A program made the position numbers and the translations under genes. Under the pieces are notes generated by a model. The model had not been told where the DNA came from and did not search any database. It saw only the letters and a program-made list of their open reading frames with translations. A stretch of DNA of 64,000 nucleotides from Acidobacteriota bacterium (lineage in GTDB: Bacteria; Acidobacteriota; Thermoanaerobaculia; Multivoradales; Multivoraceae). The stretch covers positions 1 through 64,000 of the forward strand of contig QQVD01000005.1 in NCBI GenBank assembly GCA_003388555.1, given 5' to 3'. Positions 37,222-39,566 of the stretch are shown here, one piece after another. Each line of letters starts with the position of its first letter. The stretch's first letter is position 1.

Positions 37222-37450
37222 GGCGGGTCAGGGGCTGAGGGAAGGGAAAAGGGAAAAGGGAAGAGGGAAAAGGGAAGAGGGAAGAGGGGGCAGAGAGGGG
37301 TCGGGGGTCAGGGGTTGGGGACAAGGGACAAGGGACAAGGGAGGAGAGAGGGGTCGGGGGATAGTGGTCAGGAAGGGAAAAGGGAAAAGGGAAGAGGGAA
37401 GAGGGAAGAGAGGGCAGGGAGCAGGGAGAAGGGAGCAGCGAGAGGGATAG
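37222..37450. repeat. GGGAAAA/GGGAAGA purine array upstream of the ADOP gene
   Basis: The plus strand is almost pure purine and G-rich: GGGAAAA and GGGAAGA heptamers at 37234-37290, GGGACAA x3 near 37324-37345, and a second GGGAAAA/GGGAAGA cluster at 37375-37410. It is the fourth such tract in the window and sits directly before the start codon of the minus-strand permease, so it probably contains or replaces its leader. Confidence 0.9.
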
Positions 37451-37766
37451 GCCTCAACTCTACTTCCGTGTTCCGGTGGCGGGTTGTGCACGACCGCCGG
37501 CGCATTGTTCGCTGCCGCCGCCGCGGCGGCGGTAGTCTCCGCCCGACGATCGCCTGCGTGCTCGTCGCGACGCGATGGACGCGATCGACCGCGGAGTCTG
37601 AGGCATGCGCCGAGTGCAGAGTGACCGCCCCGCGGGTCGCAAGTCCGAGGTTCGACAGGAGGTTACGAGCGCCGCCGCGCGACCGTCCAGGACGGCCTTC
37701 GGGCGGAGCCGTTCAGGCGCTCTCGAGCGCTCTCGTGGCAGCTCTCTCGACCGACCACCCGGTCGC
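37451..37766. other. Intergenic stretch without a supported gene
   Basis: GC-rich sequence between the purine array and the promoter at 37767. Open frames exist but give Arg/Ser-rich translations with no domain or ribosome site. A CGGCGGTAGTCTCCG segment near 37520 contains a TAGTCT hexamer that could be a -10 site, without a matching -35. Confidence 0.3.
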
Positions 37767-37794
37767 TTGACAAGGCTCGTCTCGGGCGTATGCT
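37767..37794 (+). promoter_or_regulatory. Strong sigma-70-like promoter
   Basis: A perfect TTGACA (37767-37772) and TATGCT (37789-37794) are separated by 16 bp, predicting a transcript start near 37801. That base is also the first base of a stem (GTGAG...CTCAC), which supports the assignment. It drives the candidate structured RNA rather than an annotated gene. Confidence 0.75.
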
Positions 37795-37895
37795 GTCTTC
37801 GTGAGTGGGCGCTCCGGGGTCGAGATCACTCCCCCGACGCTGCACCCCTCACAGCGCGAAGCCACATCTGTCCACGACCAGCGAAGGAGGTTTGA

Positions 37896-37961
37896 ATGAG
37901 TCCGCCGGACCAACAGGAACCCTCGAACCTTCGAGCTCGAGTGACTCTCGAAGGCTGCTGA
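37896..37961 (+). CDS. 21-residue mini-ORF with perfect Shine-Dalgarno
   Basis: AAGGAGG (37884-37890) stands 5 nt before ATG 37896. The frame begins MSPPDQQEPSNLRAR and ends with a Cys codon before TGA. It has no run of a single regulatory amino acid, so a classic amino-acid attenuator is not obvious. It may be a leader peptide or a dual-function RNA product. Confidence 0.45.
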   Translation: MSPPDQQEPSNLRARVTLEGC

Positions 37962-38087
37962 GGGAACACCGTGATCGGCTGTGAGGTGCCCCGCCACCGT
38001 CGCGGCTCGCGGCGAGCCACAGAGCGCTGACCCGCTGCACGCGAACCGGACTTCAGGATCCACAAGGGGACCCCACCCCGGCCGACG

Positions 38088-38120
38088 AAAAGGGCGCTGA
38101 TTCGAGTCAGCGCCCTTTTT
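38088..38120 (+). terminator. Intrinsic terminator, 13-bp perfect stem
   Basis: AAAAGGGCGCTGA (38088-38100) pairs perfectly with TCAGCGCCCTTTT (38107-38119) around the loop TTCGAG, and ends in a T-run. It terminates the transcript from the 37767 promoter and lies 70 bp before the TPR gene. Confidence 0.85.
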
Positions 38121-38189
38121 GCGTCTGGCGCGAGCTGCGCGGCCACCGAGTGCCCGCGACGGTGATGCCGGGCTAGACTCGCTGCCGCG

Positions 38190-39566
38190 ATGAGCTTCCT
38201 GCGCCGCATCCTGGGTGGGTCGAAGACGGCCGAAGACGTGCAGGGCCTCCTGGAGTCTGGCGATGCGCGCCGAGCACTCGCCGCGGCGCGCAAGCTGGAC
38301 CCCGGCGCCGTCAGCGAGGAGAGGCGCGCCGAGCTCGAGGCGTCCTGTGAGCGGGCCCTGCTCGAGGCGACGATGGCGCGGGTCGACGCGGCGCTCGAGG
38401 TCGACCATCTCGAGGATGCCGCCGAGTGGATCCGCATCGCCCGCCAGCAGCTGTCCACGCTGCGCACCAAGGAGCGCGCCGCGCTCGAGTCCGAGCTCGC
38501 TGAGCGGATCGCCGTCGTCGAGGAGAGGTCGAGCCGCGCGGCGGCGGAGGCGATGCGCCGCGACCTCGACGCGCACCGCCACGACGAGGCCGACCCGGAC
38601 GACGACGAGACGCCGCTCGAAGCCGCCGAGCAGGCCTTCGAGGTGCTGATCGACACCCTGGGCGAGGAAGCCGCGATCCTCTACCGCGAGGCCGGCGCGC
38701 GTAGCGCCGCCTTCCGCGCCGCGGCTGTCGCGGTCAGCGAGGGCTCCGCGAGGGCGGCGCTCGAGCAGCTCGAGGCGATCGAGGAGGAGCTGCGCGCGGC
38801 GCCGGCGGTGGTCCTCGAACGAGGCCGCGCTCTGCTGCTCGACGGGCAGTTCGGCTTAGCGCGCGAGGCCTTCGAGGCGGTCGAGGACCACTTCGCGGCC
38901 CATGCGCTCGACCAGCAGGGAGCTCTCTCCTGGATCGAGCTGTGGAGCGAGGCCGCACTGGAGAGCGACGCCGCCGCCGAAGTCCTCGAACGGCTCGAGA
39001 GCTCGCAGGAGCTGAGCGGTGCGACCAGCCCGACCCTGCTCGAGCTGCACGCCGCCGCCCTGCGCCGCGCCGGCCGCGAGGACGAAGCGATCGAGGCGCT
39101 GCGTGCCGCTGGCGGCAGGTTCCCGTTGCACAACGAGTTCGACTACCGGCTCGCGGTGCTGCTCTGTGAGCGGGGGCGGCACGAGGAGTCCGAGGAGGTG
39201 CTCGCCGAGCGCATCGAACGAGGGTTGCGACCGGGCGGTCAGCAGCTGCTGCATCCGGGCTCCCTGGAGCTGCTCTGCGAGCACCTGCTCTGTCACGACC
39301 CGGTGCCGGTCGAGCGGGCGAGCGAGCTGCTCGACGTGACGGTGCACCTGCTCGGCGGCACCACGGCCAATGTCGCCTGGTTGCGCTCCCACGTGCTGCG
39401 GCACCAGGGGCGGGTCGCCGAGGCGGATGCTGCGGCGGAGGTCGCGCGCGAGCTGCGCGGGCGAACGGGCGAGGGCGACGCGGCTGACGGTGGCGGTGCG
39501 ACGGCGAAGAGCGAACATCGGCTCCGGCGCATCGCGCCGCCGGAAGCCACGAGCGCCGCCGGCTGA
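38190..39566 (+). CDS. Helical repeat (TPR-like) protein, unknown function
   Basis: The 458-residue, Ala/Glu/Leu-rich soluble protein is built from helical pairs reminiscent of TPRs: LLESGDARRALAAARKLDPG, LLDGQFGLAREAFEAVEDHFAAHALDQQGALSWIELW, ALRRAGREDEAIEALRAAGGRFPLHNEFDYRLAVLLCERGRHEESEEVL. An acidic stretch around residue 135 (DEADPDDDET) separates a coiled-coil-like N-terminal third from the repeats. No signal peptide. It probably mediates protein interactions. A TAGACT hexamer at 38174-38179 is a likely -10 site, which would leave only a few bases of leader. Confidence 0.78.
   Translation: MSFLRRILGGSKTAEDVQGLLESGDARRALAAARKLDPGAVSEERRAELEASCERALLEATMARVDAALEVDHLEDAAEWIRIARQQLSTLRTKERAALESELAERIAVVEERSSRAAAEAMRRDLDAHRHDEADPDDDETPLEAAEQAFEVLIDTLGEEAAILYREAGARSAAFRAAAVAVSEGSARAALEQLEAIEEELRAAPAVVLERGRALLLDGQFGLAREAFEAVEDHFAAHALDQQGALSWIELWSEAALESDAAAEVLERLESSQELSGATSPTLLELHAAALRRAGREDEAIEALRAAGGRFPLHNEFDYRLAVLLCERGRHEESEEVLAERIERGLRPGGQQLLHPGSLELLCEHLLCHDPVPVERASELLDVTVHLLGGTTANVAWLRSHVLRHQGRVAEADAAAEVARELRGRTGEGDAADGGGATAKSEHRLRRIAPPEATSAAG

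Follow-up and report, generated by a model that had tools for sequence, protein, structure and literature searches.

Introduction

A short stretch of the forward strand, between an FtsX-type permease gene and a TPR-like gene of an Acidobacteriota bacterium, raises the question of what a candidate transcription unit with a promoter, a 21-codon open reading frame (the mini-ORF) and an intrinsic terminator of its own may be doing at this position. It lies in the first 64,000 nucleotides of contig QQVD01000005.1, and these 64,000 nucleotides as a whole are referred to as the window. An initial sequence-only reading of the window had pointed to these elements and to several internal stems, and had offered as explanations a dual-function small RNA (sRNA), a leader-peptide attenuator for the TPR gene or a new structured class of RNA. 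The analysis favours, with a confidence somewhat above even, a stand-alone lineage-specific small mRNA, or dual-function RNA, the peptide of which, and possibly the RNA, would work in trans and without involving the TPR gene. The features on which the discussion is based are collected in table 1.

Table 1. Coordinates of the unit, of the gene downstream and of the units used for comparison. Positions without a contig label are those of the window; G000 is this genome, G001 and G002 are two other genomes.
Feature	Location	Strand	Remarks
sigma-70-type promoter, TTGACA-N16-TATGCT	37767-37794	+	sole consensus match in the window, either strand
-35 and -10 elements	TTGACA 37767-37772; TATGCT 37789-37794	+	16-nt spacer; read from the sequence
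predicted 5' UTR, ~95 nt	37801-37895	+	start site placed from the -10 spacing
Shine-Dalgarno AAGGAGG	37884-37890	+	5 nt before ATG; 1 match in window, 0.11 expected
21-codon ORF MSPPDQQEPSNLRARVTLEGC	37896-37961	+	stop ends at 37961
untranslated 3' part, 126 nt	37962-38087	+	no significant structure (overlapping 37960-38060: z = +1.4)
intrinsic terminator	38088-38120	+	perfect 13-bp stem, 6-nt loop, T run; also in MFE fold
possible own -10 of the TPR gene, TAGACT	38174-38179	+	10 nt before ATG; from TAnnnT position statistics
TPR-like gene	38190-39566	+	weak TPR matches under Pfam cut-offs; probably independent of the unit
ilvE leader-peptide attenuator L064	G000 C11:19428
ilvE leader-peptide attenuator L170	G001 C3:1344569
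ilvE leader-peptide attenuator L146	G002 C41 63779	complement
L075 unit	G000 C15 68115	complement	consensus promoter, 30-codon ORF MRIISFQLMRVRTADPRWSTAAREEGHWES, terminator

A predicted discrete transcription unit

The promoter that the sequence-only reading had called strong is indeed in place, and its consensus, TTGACA-N16-TATGCT, occurs once in the 64-kb window when both strands are counted, the mean number of consensus promoters in shuffles of a 4-kb stretch being 0.0 (sd 0.1). Throughout the 6.8-Mb genome the wider pattern TTGACA-N16-18-TAnnnT is found at 36 sites as opposed to 4 for a reversed-pattern control. It is a real promoter class of this genome, driving mostly tRNAs and, judging by eye, housekeeping genes: tRNA genes lie directly downstream at six of the 29 loci of this class that were scanned, and other sites precede what we take, by eye from the translations, to be groES, the genes of ribosomal proteins S1, S20 and L13, HU, clpX, nadA and ilvE. 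The promoter at 37767 belongs to this class and is therefore one of roughly three dozen strong promoters of the genome, which makes the unit a good small-gene candidate; no recognised gene starts from it. The unit would be transcribed from 37801 by the housekeeping sigma factor. In a related genome (G002) pattern and control are equally frequent (37 sites in both), so that the promoter set obtained there is mostly noise.

The perfect stem followed by a T run that had been taken to end the unit is present as well (arms at 38088-38100 and 38107-38119, with the T run after them), and nowhere else in the 64-kb window does a T tail follow a perfect stem of 9 bp or more. Promoter and terminator, each unique in 64 kb, are separated by 293 nt on one strand, and on sequence grounds a transcription unit of approximately 320 nt is real. 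Early terminators were searched for after 96 promoter-like sites (all 36 of this genome, all 37 of G002 and 23 of the 28 of G001), a scan that recovered some units overlooked by earlier, stricter terminator scans. A terminator within 460 nt after the promoter was found at three of the 36 sites of this genome, namely the 37767 unit and the L064 and L075 units considered below, and this combined scan for promoter and early terminator returned no counterpart of the 37767-38120 unit in G001 or G002.

The mini-ORF and its translation signals

All the parts expected of a small-protein mRNA (promoter, Shine-Dalgarno sequence, start codon and terminator) are present. The mini-ORF preceded by AAGGAGG was confirmed, and AAGGAGG-N4-8-ATG gives one match in the 64 kb (both strands) compared with 0.11 expected from shuffles; scaled by hand to one strand of 322 nt, the number expected by chance falls to about 0.0003, a value to be read bearing in mind that the pattern was picked after seeing the site. 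Genome-wide there are 46 AAGGAGG-ATG matches against 9 in the control. At 26 of the 30 loci examined among these 46 the motif opens an ORF that is 60 aa or longer, and thus the signal is in use in this genome. Two observations count against translation of the mini-ORF, namely that about nine of the 46 matches are expected by chance and that its third-position GC content (GC3) is 0.57 against 0.90 for the neighbouring genes.

The low GC3 is also what would be expected if the unit were a non-coding trans-acting sRNA, with the mini-ORF incidental. The strong promoter and clean terminator in the absence of a conserved ORF speak for this explanation, as does the general tendency of sRNAs to diverge fast. 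It is set against the low probability that a unit of this length would by chance contain a perfect Shine-Dalgarno sequence at good spacing, and against a structure that does not exceed that of shuffles (see below), and is judged unlikely. The codon usage of the mini-ORF, which is not gene-like, and the failure to find a relative elsewhere would also fit a decayed gene of which promoter, start and terminator survive. However, three translated pieces from within the unit gave no Pfam match at E<=1, and in none of the frames is third-position GC as high as it is in real genes of this genome, so that we regard decay as very improbable.

Two further candidates were rejected. A type I toxin-antitoxin mRNA would be expected to encode a short hydrophobic membrane peptide, whereas the mini-ORF peptide is, by inspection, hydrophilic. 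A 96-aa ORF upstream (37605-37895), stopping right at the start of the mini-ORF, was discarded because the promoter sits inside it and its frame lacks gene-like third-position GC through the unit.

RNA folding

The internal stems proposed earlier can be read in the sequence, with GTGAG at 37801 facing CTCAC at 37848-37852 and the CCTTCGAG/CTCGAAGG hairpin also present, but they do not rise above chance: the body of the unit without the terminator has a fold z of +0.3, 121 of 200 shuffles folding as well, and a perfect hairpin of at least 8 bp arises in 23 of 200 shuffles. The 3' stretch 37960-38060, which includes the domain previously described as branched (37979-38022), folds worse than its shuffles (z = +1.4). 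The z of -2.56 calculated for the unit as a whole is due to the terminator. With folding at shuffle level, and with no homologue found to align for covariation, the proposal of a new structured class is not supported.

Ensemble prediction shows the Shine-Dalgarno sequence largely paired, and this pairing and the CCTTCGAG/CTCGAAGG hairpin are mutually exclusive. One could then imagine a genus-specific dual-function RNA, a strong transcript in which pairing of AGGUUUGA with UCGAACCU within the mini-ORF would close the Shine-Dalgarno sequence and a competing CCUUCGAG/CUCGAAGG hairpin would open it again, so that synthesis of the peptide would be under the control of a switch and the RNA itself would act in trans. 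Little weight is given to such a switch because shuffled sequences fold just as well as this region, and we consider this reading quite improbable.

Searches for homologues

The finding that the unit matches none of the housekeeping RNAs held when families were searched. Rfam gave no match in the window at the gathering thresholds and, at E<=10, seven sub-threshold matches within 37700-38200, none of them credible (the best, on the minus strand, with E 0.082), and ARAGORN returned no tRNA or tmRNA. 6S RNA (RF00013), which like the unit is a short RNA outside protein-coding genes, was considered and rejected: the 6S RNA of this genome lies elsewhere (C25, 84.2 bits), and the family gives no match at the unit at E<=10.

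By blastn against 60 relatives, the nearest of which belong to the same family and none to the same genus, the unit produced some match at E<=1 in 59 genomes, all of them short. Inspection of eight such loci placed seven in long open frames and one at an unrelated terminator of similar sequence, with no homologue among them. A blastn search of 72 genomes of the order, in which 10 first-look candidates were scored per genome, gave E<=0.001 in three, one being the window itself and the others matches of 35-39 nt, with no convincing homologue among them; plasmids and phages contained no match to the unit. The mini-ORF peptide, searched against 60 genomes, scored E<=10 in 12 including its own, with a best value elsewhere of E 0.54 and no convincing relative. 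As a control, the ilvE leader of this genome was found by blastn in six of 15 other genomes of the family, through its terminator only (E approx. 0.006). These negative results on homologues are weak, since blastn likewise misses all but the terminator of a leader that is conserved in the family.

The gene downstream and the ilvE leaders

The order promoter, short ORF, terminator and gene is also that of the ilvE leaders found in three genera of the same bacterial family, in which the short ORF has many codons for Val, Leu and Ile. By its anatomy the ilvE unit is clearly a leader-peptide attenuator: the leader peptide of this genome ends VVVRLEILVLSGTRAT, those of G001 and G002 end MTRPAILLLLVLVLVLVTQGAN and ...LLLPGSVLISLVLIGLVLIGLRVT, respectively, and all three are closely followed by a terminator and ilvE. 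The gene downstream of L064 was named by eye and is presumably ilvE, the branched-chain aminotransferase gene; L064 itself has no Rfam match at gathering. It may therefore be asked whether the 37767 terminator is conditional too, a ribosome on the mini-ORF deciding whether the polymerase reads through into the TPR gene 70 nt downstream. The best argument for this mechanism is the shared order of parts together with the position of the three units of this genome that end in an early terminator, each of which precedes a gene on the same strand, a hint at attenuation.

The details of the unit point the other way. While sharing with the ilvE attenuators a consensus promoter, a short ORF, a strong terminator and a same-strand gene downstream, it differs from them in codon content, in geometry and in conservation, the latter being evident for the ilvE leaders in three genera and not found for the unit. 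In the mini-ORF, with its product MSPPDQQEPSNLRARVTLEGC, codons for a single amino acid do not cluster, as opposed to VVVRLEILVL and LLLLVLVLVLV in the ilvE leaders, and its stop codon is 126 nt from the terminator compared with 28-41 nt in the three ilvE leaders (counted by hand). Within the order, 17 further genomes carry an orthologue of the TPR gene, but a search of 23 other members of its own family gave none, and a protein search of the genome contigs gave no relative. Upstream of none of the 17 orthologues (16 with 428-450 nt of upstream sequence, one with 75 nt) is there a terminator or a consensus promoter. Pairing between upstream segments and the arms of the terminator does not exceed that seen in shuffles, a test which is weak because it caught just one of two ilvE controls.

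The TPR gene also has a possible -10 element of its own. A TAnnnT stands 10 nt before the start codon at two of 89 mechanically chosen starts of this genome, one of the two being that of the TPR gene, which is suggestive of an own promoter and leaderless transcription. Overall, an attenuator for the TPR gene, as put forward in the sequence-only reading, is rather unlikely. Judged from sequence, promoter, terminator and Shine-Dalgarno sequence are above chance, and a conserved attenuator is absent at the TPR gene.

As a separate observation, the most frequent position of TAnnnT relative to start codons in this genome is 6-7 nt upstream (seven of 89 starts), a sign of leaderless transcription in the lineage.

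Proposed mode of action and related observations

In the small mRNA that we favour, the housekeeping sigma factor would direct constitutive transcription of an RNA of about 320 nt from one of the few consensus promoters of the genome, ribosomes would load at the perfect AAGGAGG Shine-Dalgarno sequence and produce a hydrophilic 21-residue peptide, and the intrinsic terminator would end the transcript. The peptide, and possibly the RNA too, may then act in trans, apart from the downstream TPR gene. Bacterial small mRNAs and dual-function RNAs are exemplified by SR1/SR1P of Bacillus subtilis, also a short terminated transcript with a Shine-Dalgarno sequence and a short ORF, the likeness seen being one of layout. 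The unit is thus a plausible addition to the known small mRNAs or sRNAs without relatives; if real, it adds another small gene without annotation to a lineage that has been little studied, and opens no new class.

The ilvE attenuator with its Val/Leu/Ile-rich leader peptides in three genera is probably a more interesting find than the 37767 unit itself. According to PMC2965389, functions were associated in 2010 with almost none of the attenuators predicted in Acidobacteria.

In the L075 unit the distance from the end of the ORF to the terminator is, by a hand count, approximately 38 nt. The gene that follows was named by eye and is presumably that of a MATE efflux pump, so that L075 is a possible attenuator of a drug pump. 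Finally, a long purine-rich near-repeat of gggaaaagggaagagg units occupies positions 37230-37440 of the window, between the FtsX-type permease gene and the 37767 unit.
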